Source: Sulfuricystis multivorans (GTDB lineage: Bacteria; Pseudomonadota; Gammaproteobacteria; Burkholderiales; Rhodocyclaceae). From it: a stretch of 64,000 bases of DNA. The translations under genes were made by a program, and so were the position numbers. Positions 42,892-58,196 of the stretch are shown one piece after another (position 1 is the stretch's first letter; every line of letters begins with the position of its first letter). The notes beneath the pieces were generated by a model that had not been told where the DNA came from, did no database searches, and was given only the letters and a program-made list of their open reading frames with translations. The stretch lies in the NCBI RefSeq assembly GCF_003966565.1, contig NZ_AP018718.1:62001-126000 (forward strand). Reading direction: 5' to 3'.

Positions 42892-43817
42892 AGCAGAAGG
42901 GCGCAGCCAAGACCGCACGCATCCCGATCAAGATCGTGCCGGCCGCCGAGCCGCTGAAAAAACCCGACTGGATCCGCGTCAAGGCCGGCAATTCCGCGGC
43001 GCGCTTCGGGGCGGTGAAGGCGATCCTGCGCAGCCACGGCCTGCACACGGTCTGCGAAGAGGCCACCTGCCCGAACATCGGCGAATGCTTCGGCAAGGGC
43101 ACCGCCACTTTCATGATCCTAGGCGATCTGTGCACGCGCCGCTGCCCGTTTTGCGACGTCGGCCACGGCGTGCCGGCCCCGCCCGACCCCGAGGAGCCGG
43201 CAAAGCTCGCTGCCACGATCGCGGCGATGAAGCTTCGCTATGTGGTGATCACCAGTGTCGACCGCGACGATCTGCGCGATGGCGGCGCGGGGCATTTCGC
43301 CGCCTGCATCCGCGCGATCCGCGCTGCCACACCTGAAACCAAGATCGAGATACTGGTGCCGGACTTTCGCGGCCGGCTGGCAATCGCGCTCGACATCCTC
43401 GCTCATGATCCGCCGGATGTGATGAACCACAACCTGGAGACCGTCCCACGCCTCTACAAGCAGGCCCGTCCCGGGGCCGACTATGCGCACTCGTTGCAGC
43501 TCTTGCAGGCATTCAAGCGTCGCCTGCCGCACATTCCAACCAAGTCCGGGCTGATGGTGGGCCTGGGCGAGAGCGACGAGGAGATCCTCGCGGTGATGCG
43601 CGACTTACGCGCCCACGACGTCGAGATGCTGACCATCGGCCAGTATCTCGCGCCATCGAGCCATCATCTGCCGGTCGTGCGCTATGTGCATCCCGAACTG
43701 TTCAGGATGTATGCGGACGAGGCGGAGAAGATGGGCTTCACCCATGCTGCCTGTGCGCCGCTGGTGCGCTCGAGCTATCACGCCGAGCTGCAGGCGCACG
43801 ACGCTGGTGTGGCCTAG
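42888..43817 (+). CDS. lipA: Lipoyl synthase
   Basis: LipA inserts two sulfurs into the octanoyl chain. The 309-residue radical SAM protein has the auxiliary cluster [12 protein letters not shown] and the radical SAM cluster CTRRCPFC, plus the final RSSYHA serine. It is last in dacA-dat-ybeD-lipB-lipA and overlaps the convergent glycosyltransferase by four bases. Confidence 0.96.
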
Positions 43818-45001
43818 ATTTCAAAAGTCGGCGCTGGCAGGACGGCATCCGCAGCGTCGAAACGGTGCTCGACCGCATCGATGAGCATCGTTTCGTAACG
43901 CTCGACGACGCTGTTCCAGCTCAGGTGGCGCACGCTGGCGGCACAGCCAGCGCGATCGATGCCGTTGCGGGTGAGCCGTCGCACGGCTTCGCGGCTGGCG
44001 GCGATGAAGCCGACTGTATCGCCGGGCTTGACGAGCCAGCCATTGACGCCTTCGACGATAAGCTCGCCGGCGGCGGCATGGTCGAAGGCGACCACCGGCA
44101 GGCCGCTCGCCAGTGACTCGGCTACGACGTTGCCAAAGGTCTCGGTCAGGCTGGGAAAGAGAAACAGATCGGCGCTGGCGTAATGTGTGGCAAGGTCTTC
44201 GCCGGTTCGCATGCCGCAGAACAGGACATCCGGATAGCGGCGTGCCAAGGCGAGTGCGGCCGGGCCATCGCCGACACAGACCATACGTGCTTGCGGCCAT
44301 TCTTGGCGGATCGCCGTGAAGGCCTTGAATGCCAGCGCCAGATTCTTTTCCGGCGCCAGCCGGCTGACGACCAGACAAACCGGCGCATCCGGACGCGCTC
44401 CCCATTCCAGGCGCAGCAGCGGCGAGCGGCGTGCCGGTGAAAACAACCGTGTGTCCACACCGCGCGAGAGCACCCGCACATTGCCAAATCCCGCTTGGCC
44501 GAGCGCCATGGCGAGACTGGCCGTCGGCACCAGGATCATGGCCGTGCGATTGTGGAACCAGCGTAAGTAGGATTCGATGCCGCGCTGCAGCCAGCCGATG
44601 CCGTAGTGCCGGCTGTAGCTGTGGAAGTTGGTGTGGAAGCTGGAAATCGTCGGAATGCCAAGCCGTCGCGCCGCCGCGAGCGCCGAATGGCCGAGCGGCC
44701 CTTCGGTGGCGACATGCACGACATCCGGCATGGCTGTACGCCACAGCGAGATGAGGCGCCGAGCCGCCGGCAGGCCGAAGCGCAGTTCGGGATAGCGCGG
44801 AATCGGCAGTCCCGGCACCAGTAGCCCGCCATCCGGCAACGTTGCGCTCACCTCATCCTTCTGGCGCGGCCGCACGATGCTTACGGCATGGCCGCGGCTG
44901 CGCAGACCCTCGGCCAGCCGCCCAAGCGTCATCGCCACGCCATTGACTTCGGGCGGAAAGGTTTCGCTGACGAGCGCGAGGCGGAGCTTGCGGGCGCTCA
45001 T
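43814..45001 (-). CDS. GT4 glycosyltransferase (SqdX/MgtA-like)
   Basis: The 395-residue protein has the two Rossmann halves of GT-B enzymes: [21 protein letters not shown] at the start and [20 protein letters not shown], then [26 protein letters not shown] with the donor-site ExxxxxxxE. The [21 protein letters not shown] segment resembles SqdX and glycolipid GT4 proteins that glycosylate diacylglycerol. It is the last gene of a three-gene unit with plcP and a second GT4. Its last residues (VLPAPTFEI) come from a dispersed repeat. The sugar donor is unknown. Confidence 0.85.
43821..43847 (-). repeat. Dispersed 27-bp repeat, copy 8 (at glycosyltransferase 3' end)
   Basis: On the minus strand TGCCGTCC is followed by GCCAGCGCCGACTTTTGA. 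It supplies the C-terminal PAPTFE residues, in the same frame as the dsbD copies, immediately before the stop. Confidence 0.7.
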
Positions 45002-45768
45002 CAGGCCGCTGTCCGCAAGGGCACGACGTTCGTCCCGACGTGGCGCCATTCGATCAGCTCGAGCGCGCCATCGAGATGCTCGACGATCGCGGTGCAGCTA
45101 TCGACCCAGTCGCCGCAATTGACGTAGAGCACGCCATCCCTTTCGCACAGCGCGGCGCTATGGATATGGCCGCAGATGATGCCGTCGAGACCGCGGCTGC
45201 GCACCGTGCGGATGACGGCATCCTCGTAATCGCAGATGAAGGAGACCGCACGCTTGATGCGCCGTTTGGCATAACCGGCCAGCGACCAATAGCCCGGGAT
45301 GCGCAGGCTGCGCCGCAACCAGGAAAGCCCGGCGTTCATTCGCACCAGCGCGTTGTAGCCAATGTCGCCGAGCAGCGCGATCCAGCGGTGATGGCGAGTG
45401 ACCTGATCGAACTCATCGCCATGCAAAAGCAGCAGCCGCCGGCCGTCGGCGGTTTCGTGCACATGTTCGGCCGCCAACTGGATGTCGCCGAAACGAGCGC
45501 CGACATATTCGCGCAAGGCTTCGTCATGGTTGCCGGGAATCAGCATCACCTTCTCGCCATGCCGAGCGCGGCGCAGCAGCTTTTGCACTACGGTGTTCTG
45601 CGCAGCGCTCCAATGGATGCCGCGCCTCATCGCCCAGAAATCGACGATGTCGCCGAGCAGGAACAGCTGCTCGGCCTCGTAGTGGCGCAAGAAAGCGATC
45701 AGGCTGTCGGCCTGGCAGCCACGCGTGCCGAGGTGGATGTCCGAGAGGAAGATGCTGCGTACTCGCAT
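45001..45768 (-). CDS. plcP: PlcP-type phospholipase C (metallophosphoesterase)
   Basis: The 255-residue protein has the metallophosphoesterase motifs in order: SDIHLGT, GDIVDFW, GNHDE, HGDEFD and GHIHSA. It starts as RSIFLSDIHLGTRGCQAD and ends with YVNCGDWVDSCTAIVEH. That pattern is typical of the PlcP group, which releases diacylglycerol from phospholipids under phosphate starvation and is often mislabelled UDP-2,3-diacylglucosamine hydrolase. It lies between two GT4 genes; its stop overlaps the next start. LpxH is the alternative, but the neighbours favour PlcP. The ATG at 45768 is preferred over one 21 residues upstream. Confidence 0.8.
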   Translation of the reverse strand: MRVRSIFLSDIHLGTRGCQADSLIAFLRHYEAEQLFLLGDIVDFWAMRRGIHWSAAQNTVVQKLLRRARHGEKVMLIPGNHDEALREYVGARFGDIQLAAEHVHETADGRRLLLLHGDEFDQVTRHHRWIALLGDIGYNALVRMNAGLSWLRRSLRIPGYWSLAGYAKRRIKRAVSFICDYEDAVIRTVRSRGLDGIICGHIHSAALCERDGVLYVNCGDWVDSCTAIVEHLDGALELIEWRHVGTNVVPLRTAA

Positions 45769-45811
45769 AGCCAGCAGCTTGCCGGGCGGATGCGACGCGA
45801 AGATGAAAGAA

Positions 45812-47014
45812 TCATGACGGAATGGTGACAATGGCTTTGTCGGCCACCCTGCGGGTTTCCAGCACCGTGCGATAGACCTCGGCCAGTCGACGGGCGCAGG
45901 CCGTAGTGGTCCATTCGTTGGCGAAGCTGCGCGCCGCGCGCCCCATTGCCTCGCGGCGCTGAGGATCGTCGATCAACGCGGCCAGCGTCGTGCCGAAGGC
46001 TGGGGCCTCCTGGGGTGCCGGCAGAGCACCGCGGCGCGGCTCGACGATCTCGCGCGTGCCCAGCGCGGAAAAGGCCAGCACCGGCAGGCCGGCCGCCATC
46101 GCTTCGAGTAACACCAGACCCTGCGTCTCGGTGCGCGAGGCGAACACGAAGACGTCTGCTGCTGCGTAGCAGGCCGGCAATTCGCTGCGTCGGTCGAGAT
46201 AGCCGACGAAGCGCACGTTCCGCGTGATGCCCAAGGCCGCCGCCTGACGTTGCAAGGCCGGCAAGGCGGGGCCTTCGCCGGCGATGACCAGGATCAGCTC
46301 CGGCCGCCGTTCAAGCGCATGCGGCATGGCATCGAGCAGGAAGCCGATGTTCTTTTCATGTGCCGTGCGACCGACGAACAAGGCCACTGGCGCTGTGGCA
46401 GGTATGGCGAAGCGGGCGCGAAAGCCGGCGCTGCCAGTACGGCAGCCGGTGCTGAAATGCTCGACGGGGATGCCGGTCGGCACGCGATGCAGCGGCGCGG
46501 TCACACCATAGCTGCGTAGCGTCTCGTGCATCGCCTGGGACGGAACGACGACGGCATCGAGCGCATTGCACTGGCGACGCGCGAGTCGGCGCGCGAAGGC
46601 GCGCAGTGCGCCTTGCGGCAATGCCGGTAGGTAGTTGTGGAGGTATTCCTCGAAATGGGTGTGATAGGTGGCGATGCAGGGCAGGCCATGCCTGCGCGCA
46701 TGGGACAATCCGGCGTAGTGGGCAGCGAAGGGGGTTTGGACGTGCACCAGGTCGACCGCGGGAGCCCGCTTCAGCGCCTGCCGCAGGCGCCAAGGCAGCA
46801 TCAGCCGGTCTTCGGGATCGAAGGGCACCCGGTGCGCCGGCACGCGAAAAATGTGCTCGTCATCGAGGTGGGGCTTGGGGTACGCCGGCGCGATGAGACT
46901 GATCGTGATGCCTTCCGCCGCGAGCGCCTGCCGGAAGGACTCGATCGACGTCGCCACGCCATTGATGCGGGGAAAAAACACGTCGGAGATCATCAGCACA
47001 CGCATTGAACGCAT
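45812..47014 (-). CDS. GT4 glycosyltransferase, diacylglycerol glycosyltransferase-like
   Basis: The 400-residue GT-B protein starts MRVLMISDVFFPRINGVATSI and has VHVQTPFAAHYAGLSHAR, ATYHTHFEEYLHNYLP and the RTETQGLVLLEAMAAGLPV donor motif. The INGVATS and YHT..EEYLH features recall diacylglycerol alpha-glucosyltransferases and SqdX. It is the first gene of the unit with plcP, so diacylglycerol released by PlcP is the likely acceptor. A dispersed repeat copy encodes a TGCRTGSAGF loop. Starts at 47020 (GTG), 47014 or 47005 (ATG) are all possible. Confidence 0.82.
   Translation of the reverse strand: MRSMRVLMISDVFFPRINGVATSIESFRQALAAEGITISLIAPAYPKPHLDDEHIFRVPAHRVPFDPEDRLMLPWRLRQALKRAPAVDLVHVQTPFAAHYAGLSHARRHGLPCIATYHTHFEEYLHNYLPALPQGALRAFARRLARRQCNALDAVVVPSQAMHETLRSYGVTAPLHRVPTGIPVEHFSTGCRTGSAGFRARFAIPATAPVALFVGRTAHEKNIGFLLDAMPHALERRPELILVIAGEGPALPALQRQAAALGITRNVRFVGYLDRRSELPACYAAADVFVFASRTETQGLVLLEAMAAGLPVLAFSALGTREIVEPRRGALPAPQEAPAFGTTLAALIDDPQRREAMGRAARSFANEWTTTACARRLAEVYRTVLETRRVADKAIVTIPS
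46419..46444 (-). repeat. Dispersed 27-bp repeat, copy 9 (in glycosyltransferase)
   Basis: On the minus strand TGCCGTACTGG is followed by CAGCGCCGGCTTTCG. It encodes CRTGSAGFR in a loop between the two Rossmann domains. Confidence 0.55.
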
Positions 47015-47067
47015 TGACACATCTTCGCGCGCGCATGTGACGGCGATATTTCATTTCGCAGCGACTC

Positions 47068-47111
47068 ATGTCATCGCGGCGTCACTGCCGAGTCAAATTT
47101 CCGTAACGCCG
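47068..47111 (+). promoter_or_regulatory. Four-unit PhoB-box array upstream of olsB
   Basis: Four consecutive 11-base units carry the cores GTCAT, GTCAC, GTCAA and GTAAC at the same phase (each core at the third base of its unit). This is the pattern of PhoB direct-repeat half-sites. A possible -10, TACAGT, follows at 47118-47123, and an AAGGAG ribosome site lies at 47145-47150 before olsB. On the other strand a possible AAATAT -10 (47046-47051) could serve the divergent glycosyltransferase-plcP unit. Confidence 0.75.
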
Positions 47112-47158
47112 TTTTCCTACAGTGCCGTTGCCCAACACACTGACAAGGAGACCGGCCA

Positions 47159-47929
47159 ATGGAGACCCGGAATGAAAGAGACGAACAGGCAGCTCTGCTA
47201 CGCCCCGCGCGCGTCAAACTGCACGTCGGCCTGGCGAGCTCCCCCTCCGAAATCCTCGCCGCGCAAAAGCTGCGCTGGCGTGTCTTTGCCGAGGAGCTCG
47301 GCGCCACGCTGCCGACGCGCATCCCCGGCGTCGACCAGGATTTCTACGATGCCTACTGCGAGCATCTGATCGTGCGCGACGAAGCCAACGGACGGATCGT
47401 CGGCACCTATCGCATCCTTTCGCCGTTGGCGGCGCGCCGGGTCGGCAGCTACTACTCGGAAAACGAGTTCGATCTGACGCGGCTTACGCATCTGCGCCCG
47501 CGCATCGTCGAAGTCGGCCGTTCCTGCATCGACCCGGAATACCGCACCGGCGCGACGATCGCGCTGCTGTGGTCGGGCCTGGCGCGCTACATGGTCGACA
47601 ACGGCTACGAATACCTGATCGGCTGCGCCAGCATCGGCATGCAGGATGGCGGCCACAACGCGGTGGGCATCTACCACGCGCTCACCGCGCACGAAGCGCC
47701 GCCCGAGTATCGCGTCTTTCCCCGCCACCCCTTGCCGCTCGAGCGCATCTGGGCTTCGCCACATCCGGACGTGCCGCCCTTGATCAAGGGCTATCTGCGC
47801 GCCGGCGCCTGGGTGTGTGGCGAACCGGCCTGGGATCCGGATTTCAACACCGCCGATTTGTTGCTGCTGTTGCCGATGAGTCGTGTCAATGCGCGTTACG
47901 CCCGCCACTTCGTCGAGCGAAAGGTGTGA
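47159..47929 (+). CDS. olsB: Ornithine N-acyltransferase OlsB-like (GNAT fold)
   Basis: OlsB joins a 3-hydroxy-acyl chain to ornithine to make lyso-ornithine lipid. The 256-residue protein has the family run AAQKLRWRVFAEELGA, RIVGTYRIL, VEVGRSCIDPEYRTG and GCASIGMQDGG, and is followed by an acyltransferase gene. The hemolysin label sometimes given to this family is historic. A good AAGGAG site precedes the ATG, and the four-unit PhoB-box array lies upstream, which fits synthesis when phosphate is scarce. Confidence 0.83.
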   Translation: METRNERDEQAALLRPARVKLHVGLASSPSEILAAQKLRWRVFAEELGATLPTRIPGVDQDFYDAYCEHLIVRDEANGRIVGTYRILSPLAARRVGSYYSENEFDLTRLTHLRPRIVEVGRSCIDPEYRTGATIALLWSGLARYMVDNGYEYLIGCASIGMQDGGHNAVGIYHALTAHEAPPEYRVFPRHPLPLERIWASPHPDVPPLIKGYLRAGAWVCGEPAWDPDFNTADLLLLLPMSRVNARYARHFVERKV

Positions 47930-47934
47930 AAGCC

Positions 47935-48738
47935 ATGCTCCGCGAGCTACGCGCGGCGTTTCGCATCACCCGCGTCGGGCTTCATCTTTGCTGGGGAGCA
48001 GCGACGGTCGCCGTAGCTTATCCGTGGCTCGATGAGCGCTGGCGGCGCGCGTTGAAACGGCGCTGGTCGCGTCAGCTGCTGGAAATACTCGGCGTCAAAC
48101 TCGGCGCTGGCGACACGGTACCCCCGCCTGGGCTGATCGTCTGCAACCACATCTCCTGGCTCGACATCTTCGTCATCAATGCCCTCACGCCGGCTGCCTT
48201 CGTGGCAAAAGCCGAGGTGAAAGACTGGCCGCTGATCGGCTGGCTGTGCGCACGCACCGAAACGCTCTTTCTCGAGCGTGGCTCGCGCACTTCGGCGCGT
48301 CGCACCATCGAGGCCATGGTCGAAAGCTTAAAGCGCGGCATTCATGTCGCCGTGTTTCCCGAAGGCACGACGACGGCTGGCGACTGCGTGCTGCCCTTCC
48401 GCGCCGCGTTGTTCCAGGCGGCGATCGAGGCCGAAACGCCCGTCATTCCCCTCGCGCTCGGCTATGCCGATCACCGCGGCAAGCCGAGCCGAGCGCCCGC
48501 CTACGACGGCGAAATAACCTTCTGGCAGTGTCTGCGTGCCATCGCCGCTGAGCGCCGGCTCGTGGCCGAGCTGCGCGTGCTGGGTGCGCTCGAGAGCCGC
48601 CAAAGCGCCCGTGGCGAGCTCGCGAGGCGCAGCCGGGAAAATATCATCTTGCAACTGGGCAACCGCCACTTTGCCCCTGCTGGAAAGATCGCTACCGACG
48701 GCGATCTGCTCGAGCTCGGAATACAACCAGCGCAATAG
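47935..48738 (+). CDS. olsA: Ornithine-lipid O-acyltransferase OlsA-like (PlsC family)
   Basis: OlsA adds the second acyl chain to lyso-ornithine lipid. The 267-residue protein has the PlsC motifs NHISWLDIF and FPEGTTTAGD, with RSARRTIEAM-type residues (TSARRTIEAM) between them. It starts five bases after olsB. By sequence alone it could be a lysophosphatidic acid acyltransferase, but the olsB pairing favours OlsA. A dispersed repeat copy encodes VKLGAGDT before the first motif. Confidence 0.8.
   Translation: MLRELRAAFRITRVGLHLCWGAATVAVAYPWLDERWRRALKRRWSRQLLEILGVKLGAGDTVPPPGLIVCNHISWLDIFVINALTPAAFVAKAEVKDWPLIGWLCARTETLFLERGSRTSARRTIEAMVESLKRGIHVAVFPEGTTTAGDCVLPFRAALFQAAIEAETPVIPLALGYADHRGKPSRAPAYDGEITFWQCLRAIAAERRLVAELRVLGALESRQSARGELARRSRENIILQLGNRHFAPAGKIATDGDLLELGIQPAQ
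48095..48120 (-). repeat. Dispersed 27-bp repeat, copy 10 (in olsA)
   Basis: On the minus strand TACCGTGTCG is followed by CCAGCGCCGAGTTTGA. It is antisense to olsA, encoding VKLGAGDTV. Two or three positions differ from the common form. Confidence 0.5.
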
Positions 48739-48794: not shown

Positions 48795-50036
48795 TCAGAC
48801 CCGCCGTTCGGCAGGGAAGCGGCAGGAAAACGTGCTGCCGCGATTGGGCGTCGAACGGATCTCGAGTTTGCCGCCGTGGCGCGCGAGCACGTGCTTGACG
48901 ATCGCCAGTCCAAGGCCAGTGCCGCCCGAGGCCGTGGCGCGGCCCTTATCGACGCGGTAGAAACGTTCGGTCAGACGGGGAATGTGCTCCGCCGGGATAC
49001 CGATGCCGGTATCGATGACGGCGAAGGTGGGCTGGCCATCGACGATGCGCCAGTCCAGCGTGATCCTGCCGCCGGACGGCGTGTAGCGCACGGCGTTGAA
49101 GACCAGATTACCGAAGGCGCTGCGGATTTCCTCGCTGCAGCCGACGAGCTTGCCGGCCGAAGTCGCGGCGATGATGATCTCATGGCGCTGGCCGGACAGC
49201 GCCAGCGCTTCGTCGCGCAGCGCTGCGAGCAGCGCCGGGATATCCACGACTTCTTCGCGCAACGGCCGGTCGCTGCTTTCGAGGCGCGAGAGTGTCAGCA
49301 GATCATTGATCAGACGATTCATGCGAGCGGCCTGCTCGGCCATCAGACGGATGAAGGTGCGCGCCGTCTCGCCGCTGGGCGGGTCTTGAGTGTCGAATTG
49401 TTCGAGAAAGCCGCTGATCACGGTCAATGGCGTGCGCAGCTCGTGTGAGACGTTGGCGATGAAGTCCCGGCGCATGGCCTCGCTGCGCACCTGTTCGGTG
49501 ACATCGGTCGAGACGAGCAGCGTGCCGCTGTCGGAAAAAGGCACGAGCATTACCGACAGCACGCGTTCGCTGCCGTTGCCATCCATGCGCAAGAGCGCGG
49601 CTGGCTGTTGGCGTCGCTGCACGCGGTAATGCTCGCTCAGCTGCTGGAATTCGCTTAGGCGGATCAATTGGGTAATCTGCGTGCCGGGATCGCGCGTCGC
49701 GTCGAGGGCGAAATGGCGACAGGCTGCTTCGTTGAGCCATTCGATGCGCATTTCTCCATCGAGCAGGATGACGCCATCGGGGAGTGCCTGGACCGCAAGG
49801 CGGAAGCGTTCTAGCGCGTTGCCCAGTTCTTGCAGTCGCTGCCGTTGCTGTTTGTGTTGCGCGAGCAGGCGGGAAGAGATTTCGCCCCAGATGCCGCGGC
49901 CATCGGGCAGCGGGTGCAATTCGGGTGCGATGAGCCAATCGCGCAGCGCGCTGCGTTGGCGGAGCTCGCGAGCGAGGGCAATCGCCAAGGCGCAGGCAGC
50001 GGCGAGCAACAACCACGCCACGCCAGTGGCGCTCAT
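48795..50036 (-). CDS. phoR: Phosphate-regulon sensor histidine kinase PhoR
   Basis: The 413-residue protein has an N-terminal membrane segment, a PAS domain (about 85-190), the phospho-acceptor helix FIANVSHELRTPL and an ATP-binding domain with NLVFNAVRYTPSGG, DTGIGI and GGTGLGLAIV. It controls PhoB in response to PhoU and the Pst transporter. Only one strong membrane helix is seen. The start overlaps the phoB stop as ATGA. Confidence 0.95.
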   Translation of the reverse strand: MSATGVAWLLLAAACALAIALARELRQRSALRDWLIAPELHPLPDGRGIWGEISSRLLAQHKQQRQRLQELGNALERFRLAVQALPDGVILLDGEMRIEWLNEAACRHFALDATRDPGTQITQLIRLSEFQQLSEHYRVQRRQQPAALLRMDGNGSERVLSVMLVPFSDSGTLLVSTDVTEQVRSEAMRRDFIANVSHELRTPLTVISGFLEQFDTQDPPSGETARTFIRLMAEQAARMNRLINDLLTLSRLESSDRPLREEVVDIPALLAALRDEALALSGQRHEIIIAATSAGKLVGCSEEIRSAFGNLVFNAVRYTPSGGRITLDWRIVDGQPTFAVIDTGIGIPAEHIPRLTERFYRVDKGRATASGGTGLGLAIVKHVLARHGGKLEIRSTPNRGSTFSCRFPAERRV

Positions 50037-50728
50037 CGCGTCGGGCTCGTCAACTTGTAGCCGACCCCGCGCACCGTCTCGATCAGCGCTTCGCTCGCCG
50101 GACCCAGTCCGGCGCGCAGACGGCGGATATAGACGTCGATGGTGCGGTCTTCGAGGAAGCGATGGTCGCCGCGTAACGCGTTCAGCAGCTGGTCGCGGGT
50201 GAGCGCCCGGTTCGGGTGGGTCATCAGATAAAGCAGCAGATCGAATTCGGTCGGTCCCAGCGCAACGGGCTGGCCATTACAGCTGACGGTGCGCGCGCCC
50301 GGGTCGAGCTTGAGCGGCCCGATCTCGACCGGATCACCGGCGAAATGCGGGGCGCGGCGCCGGAGCACCGCACGGATGCGTGCGATCAGCTCCTTCGGCG
50401 AGAACGGCTTGCTGACGTAATCGTCGGCGCCGAGGTCGAGGCCCTCGACACGGTCGGACTCCTCGGCACGCGCGGTGACCATGATGATCGGCAGCTCGCG
50501 CGTGCGCGCCTCGGCGCGCAGGCGTTTTGCCAACGCATTGCCCGACATGCCCGGCAACATCAGGTCGAGCAACACCAAGGTCGGCAGGCGCTGGCGGATC
50601 TCTTCGAGCGCGGCCTCGGCAGTGCCGACGACGACGACCTCGAAAGCGGCCTGTTCCAGCGAATAGCGCAACAGCGCCTGGATGGCGATTTCGTCCTCGA
50701 CGACCAGAATGCGCGGCCGGCTGCTCAT
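50033..50728 (-). CDS. phoB: Phosphate-regulon response regulator PhoB
   Basis: The 231-residue protein has a receiver domain with the phospho-acceptor D55 in LVLLDLMLPG and switch lysine in VSKPFSPKELIARI, then an OmpR-type winged helix (PTEFDLLLYLM, DRTIDVYIRRLR). It binds 11-base direct repeats such as those found at 47068 and 58107. It overlaps both phoU and phoR by four bases. Confidence 0.97.
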   Translation of the reverse strand: MSSRPRILVVEDEIAIQALLRYSLEQAAFEVVVVGTAEAALEEIRQRLPTLVLLDLMLPGMSGNALAKRLRAEARTRELPIIMVTARAEESDRVEGLDLGADDYVSKPFSPKELIARIRAVLRRRAPHFAGDPVEIGPLKLDPGARTVSCNGQPVALGPTEFDLLLYLMTHPNRALTRDQLLNALRGDHRFLEDRTIDVYIRRLRAGLGPASEALIETVRGVGYKLTSPTR

Positions 50729-51435
50729 TGCCCATCTTGCTCCGCAGTTCCCATCTTGCCCAATGGGGTGTGACGCACGTCTTCGCCACGGGCGATGAAG
50801 ATCACGTCGCGGGCGATGTTCTTGACATGATCGCCGATGCGTTCCACCGAGCGGGCGATGAAGATGATGTCGAGCGCAGTGCTGATCGTACGCGGGTCTT
50901 CCATCATGTAGGTGATCATCTGGCGCACGATGGAACGGAAACTTTCGTCGATTTCCTTGTCGCGAGCGATGATCGTCAGCGCGGCGCGATCATCGACGCG
51001 CACGAAGGCGTCGAGCACGTCGTGCAGCATGCCCTGGACGCGCTCGCCGAGGTAGCGGATTTCGGTGACCTGAGTCAGACAGCCGCTCATGCCTTGGTCG
51101 AAGACCTTGCGCACGCCCTTGGCGATTTTTTTCACTTCGTCGCCGATCCGCTCCAGGTCGGTGACGATCTTGCTCACCGCCATGATCATACGCAGGTCGA
51201 CCGCCGTGGGCTGACGGCGCGCGATGATGTGGGCGCAGGCGGCGTCGATGGAGACCTCCATCTGGTCGACCCCGGCATCGCGGGCAATGACCAGATCGAC
51301 GAGCTCGCGATCCTCGCCGTCGAGCGCGTTCAGCGCAGCGCGCATTTGCTCTTCGACCAGCCCGCCCATCTGGGTGATGCGGGCACGGATATCGTCGAGC
51401 TCGGTGTCGAAACGTTTGAAAATGTGCTCGTGCAT
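50725..51435 (-). CDS. phoU: Phosphate signalling protein PhoU
   Basis: The 236-residue protein has two repeated three-helix PhoU domains: GLVEEQMRAALNAL and IMAVSKIVTDLERIGDEVKKIAKG in the first half, and IIFIARSVERIGDHVKNIARDVIFI in the second, each with acidic metal-binding ExxxD motifs. It links PstB to PhoR and prevents kinase activity when phosphate is plentiful. It is 15 bases after pstB. Confidence 0.96.
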   Translation of the reverse strand: MHEHIFKRFDTELDDIRARITQMGGLVEEQMRAALNALDGEDRELVDLVIARDAGVDQMEVSIDAACAHIIARRQPTAVDLRMIMAVSKIVTDLERIGDEVKKIAKGVRKVFDQGMSGCLTQVTEIRYLGERVQGMLHDVLDAFVRVDDRAALTIIARDKEIDESFRSIVRQMITYMMEDPRTISTALDIIFIARSVERIGDHVKNIARDVIFIARGEDVRHTPLGKMGTAEQDGQ

Positions 51436-51450
51436 GGCTTTCTCTTCTCC

Positions 51451-52278
51451 TTAGCCGAAGCGGCCGGTGATGTAGTCCTCGGTGCGTTTGTCTTTCGGCT
51501 TGATGAAAATTTCGTCCGTGGCGCCGAATTCGATCAGCTCGCCCAGATACATGTAGGCCGTGACGTCGGAAATGCGCGCCGCCTGCTGCATGTTGTGGGT
51601 GACGATGATGATGGTGTATGCGCTCTTCAATTCGTCGATCAGTTCCTCGATCTTCGCCGTCGAGATCGGATCGAGCGCCGAGCAGGGCTCGTCGAGCAAC
51701 AACACCTCGGGTTGCAGGGCGATGGCGCGGGCGATCACCAGGCGCTGCTGCTGGCCGCCCGACAGGCTCATGCCGCTCTCGTGGAGCCGATCCTTGACCT
51801 CGTCCCACAGCGCCGCACCGCGCAGGGCGCGCTCGACGGCCCCGTCGAGCGTGGTCTTGTCATTGACGCCCATGATGCGCAGGCCGTAGGCGACGTTCTC
51901 ATAGATCGACTTGGGGAAAGGGTTGGGTTTCTGGAATACCATGCCGACGCGACGCCGCAGCAGCGCGACATTCACGTCCTTGTCATAGATGTTCTTGCCA
52001 TCGAGCAGGATCCGCCCCTCGATCCGGCAGCTATCGACCAGATCGTTCATGCGGTTGAAGCAGCGCAGCAACGTCGATTTGCCGCAGCCGCTCGGGCCGA
52101 TGAAGGCGGTGACGCGGTTGCGCGGTATCTGCAGATTGATGTCCTTGAGCGCATGGTTGTCGCCGTAATGAAGGTTCAGCCTGTCGACGTGCAGCACATG
52201 GTCGCTCGATGGCTCGAGCAGCACGCGGCCGAGCTCGCCGAAGTGCATCGCATGGGTCTTTTCGGGATTTGCGTTCAT
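51451..52278 (-). CDS. pstB: Phosphate ABC transporter ATP-binding protein
   Basis: The 275-residue protein has Walker A GPSGCGKS, the [18 protein letters not shown]-loop region that is diagnostic of PstB, signature LSGGQQQRL, and Walker [14 protein letters not shown]. The ATG at 52278 gives a normal length. It is 29 bases after pstA. Confidence 0.97.
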
Positions 52279-52307
52279 TGCGTTTCGTCCAGCGGGGAAA
52301 TGAGGGA

Positions 52308-53963
52308 TCAGACGCCTTCGAGGCCACGCATCTTCTCGCGCAGGCGGTGACGCAGGCGAATCGCGGCAAGATTGAGCACGACGATGATCAGTACCAGCAA
52401 TAGGGCAGTGGCATAGACGAGCGGCCGCGCCGCCTCGATGTTGGGGCTCTGGAAGCCGACGTCGTAGATGTGGAAGCCCAGGTGCATGAACTTGCGCTCC
52501 AGATGCAGGAACGGATAGTTGCCGTCGAGAGGGAGGCTGGGCGCGAGCTTGACCACACCAACCAGCATCAGTGGCGCCACTTCGCCCGCGGCGCGCGCCA
52601 CGGCGAGAATCAGCCCGGTCATCATCGCCGGGCTGGCGATCGGCAGCACGGTGCGCCACAGGGTTTCCGCCTTGGTCGCACCCAGAGCGAGGCTGCCCTC
52701 GCGGATGCTGCGCGGCACGCGCGCCAGACCTTCTTCGGTAGCGACGATCACCACCGGCAGCGTCAATAGCGCGAGCGTCAGCGAAGCCCACAACAGGCCC
52801 GGACTGCCGAATACCGGCGCCGGCTGCGCTTCTGGGTAGAACAATAGGTCGATGTTGTGACCGAGGAAGTAGACGAAGAAACCGAGGCCGAACACGCCAT
52901 AGACGATCGACGGCACGCCGGCGAGATTGTTGACCGAGATGCGGATGATGCGGATCAAGGGGCCCTGTCTGGCGTATTCGCGCATGTAGATCGCCGCCAT
53001 GATGCCCAAGGGCGTGACGATCACCGCCATCAGCAGCACCATCAGCACGGTGCCGAAGATGGCCGGGAAGATGCCGCCTTCGGTGTTCGCCTCGCGCGGA
53101 TCCTCGGCAGCGAATTCCCACAGCTTGCGCGCATAGTGACGCATCTTCGCCGGGATGCTCATCGCATTCGGGAGATAGGCATCGGCGACGTTGGCCAGCG
53201 GCACGTCGATGATGCGGCCATCGCTGATCTCGGCGGCGAGGCTGTCGCGTTTGATCTCGTGGCGCAGCTTTTCCAGTTTCTCCTGCAAGGCGAGGAAGGC
53301 TTTCTGATATTGCTCGCGCTCGTTGGCGAGCGCCGCCTGCTCCGCAGCGGTGAGCCTTTGCTGGAGCTCGAGCTTGCGCTCCTTGAGGCGCAATTTCTCG
53401 AGCGCATAGTTGATGTTGCCGATCTCGACCTTTTCGATGTGGTAGATCTCTTTGAACAGGGCGCTGGAACGCTCCAGGCGCTGTTGCAGCTCGGGCCAGG
53501 CGGCAGCCCCTTCTGCGACGACCTTGCCTTCTTCCTTGACCGCCTTCAGGTGGCCGTAGAAGTTGCCCCATTCGCGCCGCTCGAGCGTCAAAAGGTCCTG
53601 CGGACGTTCGAACTTGCCGAGCATGGGCTGCGGAAACCACTTGAAGTCGCTGCCGGTGACGTCGCGGTTGCCGAGCTTGAAAAGGTAGCGCGTGGTGAAT
53701 TTGTCCGGGCTGTCGATCTTGAAGCCGGCTTCACGAAGGCGCAGCAGCGAGACTTCCTCCTCGTCGTGGATTTCGCCGATCACGCGCTGCGGCTTGCCGT
53801 CGTTGCCGGTGAAGGTGGTCTGGATCACCGGGTGCGGCCAGAAGTGCGTCAGTCCGCGGGCGGCGGCGAGCCAGACGACGGCATAGACCATGACGAGCGA
53901 GAGCGCGACGGCGCCGGCCGTCATCCAGATCCAGGGCTCCCCGCTCTTGAACCAATTACGCAT
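52308..53963 (-). CDS. pstA: Phosphate ABC transporter permease PstA (extended form)
   Basis: The 551-residue protein is far longer than enterobacterial PstA (about 300). It has one N-terminal membrane helix (about 15-37), a long extracytoplasmic insert with a charged coiled coil around residues 165-250, and a C-terminal permease core with about five more spans and the EAA-type loop [18 protein letters not shown] similar long form is known in Pseudomonas. It is 12 bases after pstC. Confidence 0.92.
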
Positions 53964-53975
53964 GATGAAACATCC

Positions 53976-56246
53976 TCACAATGAGCTGTATTTTTCGCGC
54001 AGGCGCTGACGCACCAGCTCGCCCAGCGTGTTGGCGGCGAAGGTGATCAGAAACAGCACCAGCGCGGAGAAGAACAGCAGCCGGTAATGCGTGGTGCCGA
54101 CGGCCGCTTCGCCCATCTCGACGCCGACGTTGGCCGACAGGGTGCGAAAGCCGGTGAAGATCGACAAATCCATCACCGCGGTATTGCCGGTAGCCATCAG
54201 GACGATCATGGTCTCGCCGATCGCGCGACCCATACCGATCAGGATCGCCGAAAAGATGCCGGGACTGGCGGTCAGCAGCACGACGTTGTAGAGCGTCTGC
54301 CAAGGGGTTGCGCCGAGTGCCAGCGACCCGGTGGTCAAATGCTTGGGCACGCTGAATACGGCATCCTCGGCGATCGAGAAGATCGTCGGGATCACCGCGA
54401 AGCCCATCGCGATGCCGACCACCAGCGAGTTGCGCTGCTCATAGGACCAGCCGAGCCGCTGGTGGATCCAGTGCGGCATGTCGCCGTCGAACAGCGCCGC
54501 CTCGATCGGGTGGCCGGCCGAAAGCGCCAGTGCCATCACGAGGAGGATCACCGGGATCAGCAAAGCGGCCTCCCAGCCGGGGCTGACGCGCTGCGTCAGA
54601 CGGGCGGGCAAGAGGTGCCAAAGCCAGGCCGTCAGCAGGAAGGTGATCGGCAGCAGGAAGATGGCGAGCAAGGTGCCGGCCAGGTTGTTGTCGACATAGG
54701 GGGCGAGCCACAACCCAGCGAGAAAGCCCAGCACCACGGTCGGCAGTGCCTGCATGATCTCGATCGACGGCTTGACGATGCCGCGCATCTTCGGGGACAT
54801 GAAATAGGCGGCGAAGATCGCGCCGAGCACTGCCAGCGGCACCGCGACCAGCATCGCGTAGAACGCGGCCTTCAGCGTGCCGAGGGTGAGCGGCGCGAGG
54901 CTGAATTTCGGCTCGAAGTCCGAATTGGCCGCGGTCGATTGCCAGATGTATTCCGGCTCGCTGTAGCTTTCATACCAGACTTTCTGCCACAGCGCCGAGA
55001 AGGACACCTCCGGATATTCGTTATGCACGCGCGCCAGCGTCAGACGGCCATCGGCAGCCTCGGCCAAGAGCGCGTTGCCGCGCGGCGCAATGCCGACCAT
55101 CATCAGCGGTTGGGAGCCCGTCGAATGGGTGAGCAGCTGGCGTTGCGAGGTGGCGTAATACAGGCCAATCTCGCCCTGGTCGTCGCCGGCGAGGAAACCC
55201 TTGCGGAAGTATTCCGGGACGAGGATGGTGATTTTCCCTTTCAGCGCCGGGAACGTGCGGATCCGGGTCAGGTGATAGTTGTTTTCGGCATCGCGCACCA
55301 GGAACCATTGCGCGAGATTGCCTTTGTCGGAGCCGACGATCAGGGAATAACCGCCGGAGAGCATCGTCGCGGCGCTGACGGATTCGCCGACCGGGAACAG
55401 CTCGACGGTTTGAACCAGGCGCGGATTGGCCTTGTCCATCACGTCGTAATGGGTCGCGTAGCGGCCATCGTGCAAGACGTAAAGCTCGCGCTGCTTGACT
55501 TCGAGCAGCAGCCGTTCGATTCTGCCTTGCGGAACGGGCGGCAAGGCGACGGTGTTCTGCTCGATGTTCGTCTCGCCGGTGATCAGGTTGGTCTTGCTGG
55601 CGATGCTGGTCAAAAGCAGCCGACCATCCTCGGTGAGCGCCACGACGGTAGTTTCGTTGTCGTCGTATTGGATGGCGATTTTTTCGAGCGCCTGACCCTG
55701 CGAGTCGATGGCAAGCGGCGTCTTGCCCAAAGGGTAGTCGAGACGCGGCGTGATGGTGCGGATGTCCTTGTCGGGATGCGTCGGATCTTTCTTGAACTGG
55801 ACATCGAAGGCGGTCTTGACGAACATGATCCTGCCATCGGCCAGCCCCCAGGCGACCACGCCCTTGGCCGGATCGCCGGCAGCGAAGCTGACGGGCTTGC
55901 TGTCCGTAGGCAATTTTTCTCTGGCGATCTCGTGGCCGTCCTTCATGCCGAAAAACCGCACTTCGCCCGCCAGGGTCATGCGCACGCCGATTTCCGCCTG
56001 CTCTTCGCTGCTCAAATACACGGTGTCCGCGCCGCTCATGGCAAGCGGCACCGTTTGCGGCTTTTCGAGGCTGGGCGGGGTAAAAATGGGCACGACGACG
56101 CTGGCCAGATAGAAAAAGATCAGGCTGATCGCGAGGATCACGCTCAAGCCGCCGATGGTCATCACGTGCTTGAACAGCTTGTCCCGGGTCATGCGCCGGC
56201 CGGTAAAGCCGCCGACCTTGCTGATGTTGGCCTCGATTTTTTCCAT
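53976..56246 (-). CDS. pstC: Phosphate ABC transporter permease PstC (extended form)
   Basis: The 756-residue protein has an N-terminal membrane helix (about 31-53), a large periplasmic domain with repeated beta-strand pattern (about 60-440, possibly a beta-propeller-like fold), and a C-terminal permease core with the loop LALGATPWQTLYNVVLL. The enterobacterial form is about 320 residues; long forms occur in pseudomonads and betaproteobacteria. The added domain may contact PstS or the lipoprotein encoded just upstream. Confidence 0.92.
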   Translation of the reverse strand: MEKIEANISKVGGFTGRRMTRDKLFKHVMTIGGLSVILAISLIFFYLASVVVPIFTPPSLEKPQTVPLAMSGADTVYLSSEEQAEIGVRMTLAGEVRFFGMKDGHEIAREKLPTDSKPVSFAAGDPAKGVVAWGLADGRIMFVKTAFDVQFKKDPTHPDKDIRTITPRLDYPLGKTPLAIDSQGQALEKIAIQYDDNETTVVALTEDGRLLLTSIASKTNLITGETNIEQNTVALPPVPQGRIERLLLEVKQRELYVLHDGRYATHYDVMDKANPRLVQTVELFPVGESVSAATMLSGGYSLIVGSDKGNLAQWFLVRDAENNYHLTRIRTFPALKGKITILVPEYFRKGFLAGDDQGEIGLYYATSQRQLLTHSTGSQPLMMVGIAPRGNALLAEAADGRLTLARVHNEYPEVSFSALWQKVWYESYSEPEYIWQSTAANSDFEPKFSLAPLTLGTLKAAFYAMLVAVPLAVLGAIFAAYFMSPKMRGIVKPSIEIMQALPTVVLGFLAGLWLAPYVDNNLAGTLLAIFLLPITFLLTAWLWHLLPARLTQRVSPGWEAALLIPVILLVMALALSAGHPIEAALFDGDMPHWIHQRLGWSYEQRNSLVVGIAMGFAVIPTIFSIAEDAVFSVPKHLTTGSLALGATPWQTLYNVVLLTASPGIFSAILIGMGRAIGETMIVLMATGNTAVMDLSIFTGFRTLSANVGVEMGEAAVGTTHYRLLFFSALVLFLITFAANTLGELVRQRLREKYSSL

Positions 56247-56303
56247 GAGTTACTGTCCGACGAGCTTGGGATACCGCGCAGAGTCTACCGAACGCGACGC
56301 AAC

Positions 56304-56331
56304 GTGGGGCAACCCGGTCGGGCAGCCCCAC
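56304..56331. other. Hairpin upstream of pstC
   Basis: Seven perfect pairs, GTGGGGC/GCCCCAC, enclose a 14-base loop that can itself pair CCC with GGG. It lies in the 117-base gap between the lipoprotein gene and pstC. There is no T-tract on the minus side, so it may adjust transcript levels between PstS/lipoprotein and the permeases. Confidence 0.4.
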
Positions 56332-56363
56332 GCATGCGCCCTGCGTTGCATCGTGAGTGACGC

Positions 56364-56969
56364 TTATTTTTTCGAGTGCAGCTTATTGAAGGCTTCGATC
56401 AATGGGGCCGGGCGGCCGGCATTCTTGGTCTTCTTGTTCAACGCATAGATGACCGTCTCGCCCTTCGGGCCGGCGCCGATTTCCGTGAAGGTCCAGGCGA
56501 CCTCCTTGTGCTGCAGGAAATCTTTCATATCCTGCCATTCGCCAAAGACGTAGTAGCGACCGTTGTAGATCACTTCGCCATAAAAGGCGCCGACCTCGCC
56601 GATCTTGCCGTCGAAAAATTTTTCGGCAACGACCGGCGCATCGAGCGGGAGGCCGGCTTCCTTTTTGGTCAGGCCGAAGATCACCGTCTGTCCGTCGGGC
56701 CCGCCGCCGATGCGAGTGCGGGTGAGCGGCACCTCGTCGTGCTCGAGGAACAGCAAATAAAGCGCCGGATCGCTGAAGGCATAGAGGCGGCCGTTGTCGT
56801 GGAAGACGAGGAAGTAATTCGCCTTCTGCGCGGCGGCTGGCTGGGCGGCCTTCGCCTCGTGGTGGGAAGTTGCAGCCGGCTGCTGGCTGGCACAACCGGA
56901 AAGGCCAAGGGCGCCAAATGCCAGCGCGGCGGCCAGGCTGTGGGCGGAAATGCGTTGCATGATGCGCAT
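56364..56969 (-). CDS. Lipoprotein with two repeated domains, in the pst operon
   Basis: The 201-residue protein has a lipobox with cysteine C26 (GLSGC) and then two similar units of about 55-60 residues. The first runs from NYFLVFHDNGRLYAFSD to GPDGQTVIFGLTKKE, the second from GEVIYNGRYYVFGEW to GPKGETVIYALNKKT. No standard Pst subunit corresponds to it, and I do not recognise the family. It sits between pstS and pstC on the same strand, so it is very likely phosphate-regulated and lies in the periplasm on a membrane anchor. Confidence 0.85.
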   Translation of the reverse strand: MRIMQRISAHSLAAALAFGALGLSGCASQQPAATSHHEAKAAQPAAAQKANYFLVFHDNGRLYAFSDPALYLLFLEHDEVPLTRTRIGGGPDGQTVIFGLTKKEAGLPLDAPVVAEKFFDGKIGEVGAFYGEVIYNGRYYVFGEWQDMKDFLQHKEVAWTFTEIGAGPKGETVIYALNKKTKNAGRPAPLIEAFNKLHSKK

Positions 56970-57035
56970 GATGGGGTCTCCGTGGTCGGGTCACGCCGGC
57001 CGCGTGGGCGACCGGCGACTCACATGGATCGCGAT

Positions 57036-58022
57036 TCAGTGGATGCCCAGATCGGCCAGCGCCTTCTTGGCCATGCCGGCTGGCATCGGCACGAAGCCGT
57101 CCTTGACGACGACCTGCTGACCTTCCTTCGAGAGCACCATCTTGAAGAATTCGCGCTCGAGCGGCGGCAGTTCCGTGTTGGGGCGCTTGTTCACATAAAC
57201 GTAGAGCACGCGTGCCAGCGGATAGGTGCCGTCGATCGCGTGCTTGGCGTCGGCCTCGACGAAGGGTTGGCCGGTCTTCTTCGACAGCGGCACGGCGCGC
57301 ACGCCGGAGGTCTTGTAGCCGATACCGGAATAGCCGATGGCGTTGAGCTGGCCGCTGACGCTTTGCACGACCGACGCGGAACCAGGCTGTTCAGCGACTT
57401 CGCGTTTCAGGTCACCCTTGCACAGCGCGTGCTCCTTGAAGTAGCCATAGGTACCAGACACCGAATTGCGGCCATACAGGGCGATGGCACGGGTTTCCCA
57501 TTCGCCGGTGAGCCCCACCTGACCCCACTTGGTGATGTCGGCCGGTGCGCCGCACTTGCGGGTCGAGGAGAAGATCGCATCGACCTGCTGGATCGACAGG
57601 CCCTTGATCGGGTTGTCCTTGTTGACATACACGGCCAGGGCGTCGATCGCGACCGGCACCGCCGTGGGTTTGTAGCCGTATTTCTTCTCGAAGGACTCGA
57701 TTTCCTTGGCATTCATCACGCGGCTCATCGGGCCGAAGTTCGAAGCGCCTTCGATCAGCGCAGGGGGCGCGGTCGAGGAACCGGCGCCCTGGATCTGGAT
57801 GTTGACGTTGGGATAGAAACGCTTGTAGGTTTCGGCCCACAGTGTCATCAGGTTATTGAGCGTGTCGGAGCCGACACTGGTGAAATTGCCGGAAACCCCG
57901 CTGGCCTTGGTGTAGCTGGGCAGGGCCGGATCGACCTGCACGGCCTGGGCGCTGGCCGCCGGGGCGATGAATGCGGTGGCAGCGACGAAACCGAGAGCTG
58001 ACGCGATCTTTCTGAGTTGCAT
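57036..58022 (-). CDS. pstS: Phosphate-binding periplasmic protein PstS
   Basis: The 328-residue protein has a signal peptide ending near APAASAQA and phosphate-contacting motifs such as [21 protein letters not shown] and [12 protein letters not shown]. It delivers phosphate to PstC/PstA. The ATG at 58022 follows AAGGAG. A two-unit PhoB box lies upstream, so it is the first gene of the pst-pho unit. Confidence 0.95.
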
Positions 58023-58106
58023 GAACTGACTCCTTTCGTTGGGTGTAGAGGAAACGCGCCGGATAACGAGCGTCTTGCGGCGCACCAGGTCATGCTATTG
58101 AAACAG

Positions 58107-58124
58107 TGTGACGAATTTGTGACG
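58107..58124 (-). promoter_or_regulatory. PhoB box upstream of pstS
   Basis: On the minus strand CGTCACA, four bases (AATT), then CGTCACA match the heptamer-spacer-heptamer form of the PhoB box. A third, less regular core (GTCAT) lies 12 bases further upstream. The box is 85 bases before the pstS start and is followed by a CAATAG-like -10. Confidence 0.8.
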
Positions 58125-58196
58125 GTGTGCATGACCCCAGCCAAGGGCGGCTCGCTGGCATGAGCGTCCGTGACCGCTGTGGTTAAATAACATCAA

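Follow-up and report, generated by a model that had tools for sequence, protein, structure and literature searches.

We analysed a 64,000-nt window of Sulfuricystis multivorans DNA (NZ_AP018718.1; all coordinates are window positions; the host genome comprises 2.81 Mb in three contigs) containing a candidate lipid-remodelling locus, in which the gene for a PlcP-type phospholipase C lies between genes for two glycosyltransferases (GTs), here termed GT-A and GT-B. GT-B, PlcP and GT-A are encoded consecutively on the minus strand, the ornithine-lipid gene candidates olsB and olsA diverge from GT-B, and a minus-strand run of PhoR, PhoB, PhoU, PstB, PstA, PstC and PstS genes (48795 to 58085) heads towards olsA. 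This arrangement had been described in an earlier note on the same DNA; the open reading frames (ORFs) open at or very near the positions given in it, and Pfam and NCBIfam matches confirmed the gene order. Gene identities, synteny and PhoB-box-like sites can be read from the sequence directly, and the identity of the parts is well supported. The genes very probably serve to swap phosphorus-containing membrane lipids for sugar and ornithine lipids at low phosphate. The lipid genes and their putative control sites are as follows.

43814-45001, longest ORF to 45049, minus strand: GT-A, a GT4 glycosyltransferase, Agt2-like, probable glucuronosyl-diacylglycerol synthase (Pfam GT4, identity, clade)
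45001-45768, minus strand: PlcP, predicted phospholipase C-type metallophosphoesterase giving diacylglycerol (PlcP clade, GNHD motif, 49% identity to Sinorhizobium meliloti PlcP)
45792-45831, minus strand: PhoB-box-like tandem array (four half-sites spaced by 11 bp) preceding plcP and overlapping the 3′ end of the GT-B gene (motif score)
45812-47020, minus strand: GT-B, a GT4 glycosyltransferase of a separate TETQG clade, probable diacylglycerol glycosyltransferase, sugar not assigned (Pfam, tree, motif, neighbours)
47068-47096, plus strand: PhoB-box-like array of three half-sites 11 bp apart between the GT-B gene and olsB (score 10.7)
47159-47929, plus strand: OlsB-like ornithine N-acyltransferase (Pfam Acetyltransf_5; NCBIfam OlsB best, 169.5 bits, cut-off 320; 35.8% identity to an S. 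meliloti homologue)
47935-48738, plus strand: OlsA-like lyso-ornithine lipid O-acyltransferase (Pfam Acyltransferase; NCBIfam OlsA best, 122.4 bits, cut-off 300)

To call the esterase a true PlcP and not LpxH, as the earlier note did while suggesting a search for a separate lpxH, proved justified. The 45001-45768 product is a metallophosphoesterase by Pfam, and in a tree of 19 rows the 11 PlcP rows (including Sinorhizobium and Pseudomonas) split from the 8 LpxH rows with support 100/100, the window protein falling on the PlcP side. PlcP rows of this alignment carry GNHD where all 8 LpxH rows carry GNRD, and the metallophosphoesterase metal motifs DxH, GDxxD, GNHD, H and GHxH are kept in 16 of 16 aligned rows. 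It is extremely improbable that the protein works on lipid A as a second LpxH-like enzyme, with the neighbouring GTs serving lipopolysaccharide or capsule: public records do label its homologues 'UDP-2,3-diacylglucosamine diphosphatase', and among NCBIfam models it scores highest with those of LpxH, at 47-49 bits (47.7 bits against the LpxH model), but the same genome encodes its own LpxH at G000:C1:1055380-1056033 (251.5 bits, over the cut-off of 190.35), and all 18 genomes tested hold both an LpxH (207-284 bits) and a PlcP (36-54 bits against the LpxH model). Together with the tree split and the motif difference, this rules out an LpxH identity and refutes the alternative as to family membership. 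The window PlcP is 49% identical to an S. meliloti homologue adjoining an acyl-homoserine lactone synthase and a LuxR gene, presumably the characterized SMc00171, and 50% identical to a plasmid-borne PlcP of Pseudomonas aeruginosa. The 47% identity that we computed between these two agrees with the 46% published for PA3219 and S. meliloti PlcP (accessible text of PMC8528852). Among the best 80 of at least 573 confirmed relatives, the closest named records by PlcP are metagenome-assembled genomes of Rhodocyclaceae, the best at 83% identity.

The same comparisons gave three observations on plasmid records. The plcP-agt1 genes of P. aeruginosa lie on records filed as plasmids of 96-167 kb (L194, hits H9-H11), and on a Mitsuaria plasmid (L196) plcP directly precedes the polyphosphate kinase gene ppk1. 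With a length of 3.7 Mb and with rpoN, mutS and trpS among its genes, the record CP090106.1 (L195, L283) looks chromosomal, although its label makes it the plasmid pSymB of S. meliloti Ak57; the label is apparently wrong.

Both GTs belong to GT4 by Pfam. For GT-A, homologue matches mostly begin at residue 9-23, which places its start probably at the inner ATG at 45001, a position that would give a one-base overlap with the plcP stop codon. Within the plasmid collection, GT-A best matches (50.8-50.9%) a GT of P. aeruginosa that adjoins plcR and a phosphocholine-specific phospholipase C and that, from its place beside plcR, we take to be PA0842 (Agt2). GT-A is 50.9% identical to this protein vs 35.1% to Agt1, and a tree of 25 rows places GT-A in one group with its orthologues, Agt2 and an Acinetobacter GT whose gene is followed by a PAP2 gene (support 91/97; 90% of bootstrap trees). 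PA0842 has been named Agt2, and deletion of Agt2 abolished glucuronosyl-diacylglycerol (accessible text of PMC8528852). Ugd, for UDP-glucuronate, is encoded elsewhere in the genome (G000:C1:1621991-1623124). Identity and clade thus agree with the proposal of the earlier note that the locus holds a diacylglycerol-type glycosyltransferase, and GT-A is a probable glucuronosyl-diacylglycerol synthase. Its motif is of the SETFG/TETFG form of the GT-A/Agt2 type (TETFG, with Glu, in GT-A itself). Agt1 and a Shinella Agt have the Asp-containing TDT motif, and Asp256 of GTcp, within the TDT(F/Y)G motif of Agt1-type enzymes, is essential according to the accessible part of PMC8231724. Strict Agt/GTcp (Agt1) membership was rejected for both window GTs because Glu replaces this Asp (TETFG in GT-A, TETQG in GT-B). 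We also rejected N-acetylglucosaminyl-PG synthase, since this NCBIfam model, though ranking first for either GT, gives 133.3 and 153.5 bits vs a cut-off of 480; solved structures offered general GT4 relatives only, PimA being best for GT-A and PimB' for GT-B.

GT-B is of another kind. It is only 28-32% identical to Agt1, Agt2 and GT-A, its group stands apart in the 25-row tree with support 100/100, and TETQG is present in 98 of 98 counted orthologues (drawn from loci L034-L193, with some genomes counted twice). A Thiodictyon GT that diverges from plcP is 49% identical to it, and no characterized member of the clade was encountered in the comparisons made here. Across the GTDB class, GT-B was found in 43 of 370 genomes at E 1e-75 or better; among 29 such loci (2.8-4.2 kb each), PlcP is near in 8, a further 4 have an Agt-like gene but no PlcP, and in two others (L272, L277) GT-B follows a PAP2 phosphatase, an enzyme type able to make diacylglycerol. 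The presence of PlcP or PAP2 phosphatase near GT-B, and of PAP2 by a GT of the GT-A group, therefore suggests diacylglycerol as acceptor, and GT-B is probably a diacylglycerol glycosyltransferase. Some of its relatives have an extra N-terminal fusion (L202:3963-6191 and L200; 742 and 526 aa), and an N-terminally fused relative in Pseudosulfitobacter adjoins a lysylphosphatidylglycerol-synthase-like membrane protein.

The earlier note had suggested that the two GTs may act in series, one making monoglycosyl-diacylglycerol and the other adding a second sugar. To examine how the genes travel together, we counted them in 150 family genomes (one place per genome, 12 candidates scored in each, some genomes incomplete, partial matches at contig ends retained), after dropping one weak PlcP match (G093; 105 to 104), two GT-B matches at 37% (G034, G092; 100 to 98) and three GT-A matches at 37-38% (G021, G105, G141; 105 to 102). 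This gave PlcP in 104 genomes, GT-A in 102, GT-B in 98 and OlsB in 122, and PlcP co-occurs with GT-A, GT-B and OlsB at Fisher p of 2e-11 or less, values not corrected for kinship. Action in series would fit the joint presence of GT-A and GT-B in 87 genomes, less than 12 kb apart in 59 of these, and has a precedent in Caulobacter, where two sequential Pho-regulated GTs act on ceramide (accessible text of PMC6445935). However, 11 genomes have GT-B but no GT-A and 15 have GT-A but no GT-B, which weakens the suggestion. Two of the 11 have a true Agt1 (53-54%) and nine have neither GT-A nor Agt1, all nine with PlcP; another first GT is possible in these genomes. Since neither GT needs the other, we favour parallel action and consider a serial pathway unlikely.

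The clustering itself recurs in relatives. We surveyed the plcP loci of 80 of the 105 PlcP-bearing genomes (8-20 kb each, four of them shorter than 20 kb at 8.3, 12.1, 16.0 and 17.3 kb) at identity thresholds of our choosing, with 18 lpxH loci as control. GT-A was present in 48 of the plcP loci, GT-B in 47, either in 59, OlsB in 25 and any of PhoR, PhoB, PhoU or PstB in 30, whereas none of the 18 lpxH loci held GT-A, GT-B, OlsB or pho/pst genes; the contrast of 59/80 with 0/18 argues that plcP-GT clustering is not due to chance. All three components (a GT, OlsB and pho/pst) come together in fourteen of the 80 loci. A genome of the same genus (G019) shares the complete dacC-to-pstB order, and gene orders around plcP otherwise differ strongly between relatives. 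The clustering is therefore a recurring association and not a single oddity, and the arrangement, which the earlier note had not known from a betaproteobacterium, is not confined to this genome.

The presence of PhoB sites was assessed with a weighted CTGTCAT-N4-CTGTCAT score (our own weights; both strands, about 128,000 positions), a consensus that also appears in the accessible text of PMC8528852. A Pho box (CTGTCATNNNNCTGTCAT) before the operon was found at the plcP array and weakly for olsB and GT-B. The two top scores of the window, 45814(-) and 45803(-), both fall within the plcP tandem array. The third-best score, 10.7, is common to 47068(+) before olsB and 35526(+) elsewhere, so the olsB site is notable solely for its position; 13 of 2000 shuffles of the GT-B/olsB intergenic stretch reach it. 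In relatives, surveyed with one row per genome at a threshold of 10.7, the 11-bp period yields 24 of 81 plcP upstream stretches at or above this value in sense orientation (2 in antisense), and each other period from 8 to 15 bp yields 0-1 of 81; 4 of 49 upstream stretches of GT-A and 2 of 7 of PstS-like genes also reach it, against a background of 1.6% of 1464 upstream stretches (L034-L193, some genomes twice). The Pho-regulon link drawn in the earlier note is upheld by the sites before plcP and olsB and by the recurring proximity of pho/pst, with PhoB regulation moderately supported for plcP and weakly supported for olsB and GT-B, where only 1 of 26 and 0 of 48 upstream stretches reach the threshold. 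These low counts, including 24 of 81 for plcP, would suit functional lipid genes free of PhoB control whose closeness to pho/pst is inherited gene order. The strict 11-bp period and the position of the two best window sites at plcP speak against this, and simple inherited order does not explain the closeness, as orders vary widely between genomes while the association persists; we regard it as quite improbable.

Several observations weigh against reading these genes as a phosphate-limitation membrane-remodelling locus. The exact GT-A-PlcP-GT-B order occurs in 5 genomes only (G000, G019, G126, G080, G035). The single OlsB upstream stretch that reaches the box threshold is that of the window itself, no GT-B stretch does, and 57 of 81 plcP stretches stay below it (many of these plcP genes have another gene ahead of them in their run). 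Neither OlsB nor OlsA reaches its NCBIfam cut-off (169.5/320 and 122.4/300 bits), the models being lineage-named (Brucella, Rhodobacter). Finally, 17 of the 29 class-level GT-B loci have neither PlcP nor an Agt-like gene within the 2.8-4.2 kb read; besides the two PAP2 loci, one (L257) has a nucleotide-sugar dehydrogenase near GT-B, and a Pfam scan of the neighbours in 15 of the 17 (L258 and L279 left out) revealed no common theme among the rest. The probable ornithine-lipid pair named in the earlier note nevertheless stands, its members being adjacent, carrying GNAT and PlsC-like domains and having OlsB and OlsA as best NCBIfam models, though below cut-off.

On balance, we put the probability that this is a phosphate-limitation membrane-remodelling locus at about 85%. 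For induction, enzyme activities, sugar specificities and lipid products we infer the following scheme. Low phosphate would activate PhoR-PhoB, and PhoB would bind the tandem boxes that precede plcP, thereby switching on this gene together with the coupled GT-A gene, and those before olsB, perhaps also driving GT-B. PlcP would then remove the phospholipid head group, freeing phosphate-bearing head groups and leaving diacylglycerol, onto which GT-A would transfer glucuronic acid from UDP-glucuronate made by Ugd. GT-B would add a sugar, most likely also on diacylglycerol and in parallel with GT-A, and OlsB with OlsA would make ornithine lipid. Replacement of phospholipids at phosphate shortage is an already known strategy and the parts are of known kinds; judged by its genes, the locus is the known PlcP-Agt and OlsBA remodelling system in a version for which Rhodocyclaceae show repeated clustering with Pho genes. 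We give even odds to a broader proposal, in which GT-B represents a distinct TETQG clade of diacylglycerol glycosyltransferases in beta- and gammaproteobacteria that is linked in turn to PlcP or PAP2, supplies a neutral monoglycosyl (or another) lipid where Agt1 is absent and, with PlcP, Agt2 and OlsBA, forms a phosphate-starvation membrane island repeatedly rebuilt beside phoBR/pst in Rhodocyclaceae.

To our knowledge, the pho/pst and olsBA genes of P. aeruginosa are not adjacent to its PlcP-Agt genes. Agt2 lies there away from plcP, beside plcR, and the plcP-linked GT is Agt1, which is absent here. PlcP-Agt operons with Pho boxes are established (accessible parts of PMC4796936, PMC8528852 and PMC9239053). 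Lipid renovation in P. aeruginosa resembles the window in PlcP, an Agt2-type GT, Pho boxes in the GT operons and PhoBR control, and the accessible text of PMC8528852 does not describe GT-B. Marine plcP-agt clusters (Sebastian et al., PMC4796936) likewise join plcP to at least one GT and a Pho box, and in types 3 and 5 the GTs lie downstream of it; unlike the window, none of the six context types is described with olsBA or phoBR/pst in the accessible part of that paper. In Methylosinus trichosporium OB3b, PlcP-Agt makes glucuronosyl-diacylglycerol, and the cells also form ornithine lipid when phosphate is low; the accessible text of PMC9239053 calls the MGDG synthase as yet unidentified and allows that an unidentified GT may make MGDG. 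GT-B is the kind of candidate that might fill such a gap. Caulobacter Sgt1/Sgt2 are, like the window GTs, two GT4 enzymes, there in the PhoB regulon, but they act in series on ceramide, and no mention of PlcP was found in the accessible text of PMC6445935. Among the papers listed, our literature search found neither PlcP remodelling in Rhodocyclaceae nor its clustering with olsBA and phoBR/pst, which is weak evidence of absence, as subscription papers lay mostly outside the search.

The adjoining pho/pst genes and the site before pstS are as follows.

48795-50036, minus strand: PhoR sensor kinase (TIGR02966 over cut-off)
50033-50728, minus strand: PhoB response regulator (TIGR02154 best, 280.1 bits vs cut-off 296.2)
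50725-51435, minus strand: PhoU (TIGR02135 over cut-off)
51451-52278, minus strand: PstB (TIGR00972 over cut-off)
52308-53963, minus strand: PstA, long form, 551 aa (TIGR00974 over cut-off)
53976-56246, minus strand: PstC, long form, 756 aa (TIGR02138 best, 173.3 bits, below cut-off 196.45)
57036-58085, minus strand: PstS (TIGR02136 over cut-off)
58108-58125, minus strand: PhoB-box-like site before pstS (score 9.7, ninth in the window and within noise on score alone)

Between pstC and pstS lies a 201-aa lipoprotein-like ORF (56364-56969, minus strand) with no Pfam or NCBIfam match, a 51% homologue of which is found within the pst run of G080 (L036). Relative to the long PstA and PstC of the window (52308-56246), the PstA of most relatives with pst near plcP is only about 27-39% identical, and high identity (76-77%) occurs in L036/L118 and L166; this patchy identity suggests exchange of pst operons.

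Rhodocyclaceae include denitrifiers and polyphosphate-accumulating relatives of wastewater and freshwater. If our reading is true, it would extend PlcP-type lipid remodelling to this family, and GT-B would become a named candidate for the sort of glycolipid synthase described as unidentified in its organism by at least one study. With both routes to phosphorus-free lipids encoded next to the phosphate-sensing genes, the system would be easily testable in one small locus.

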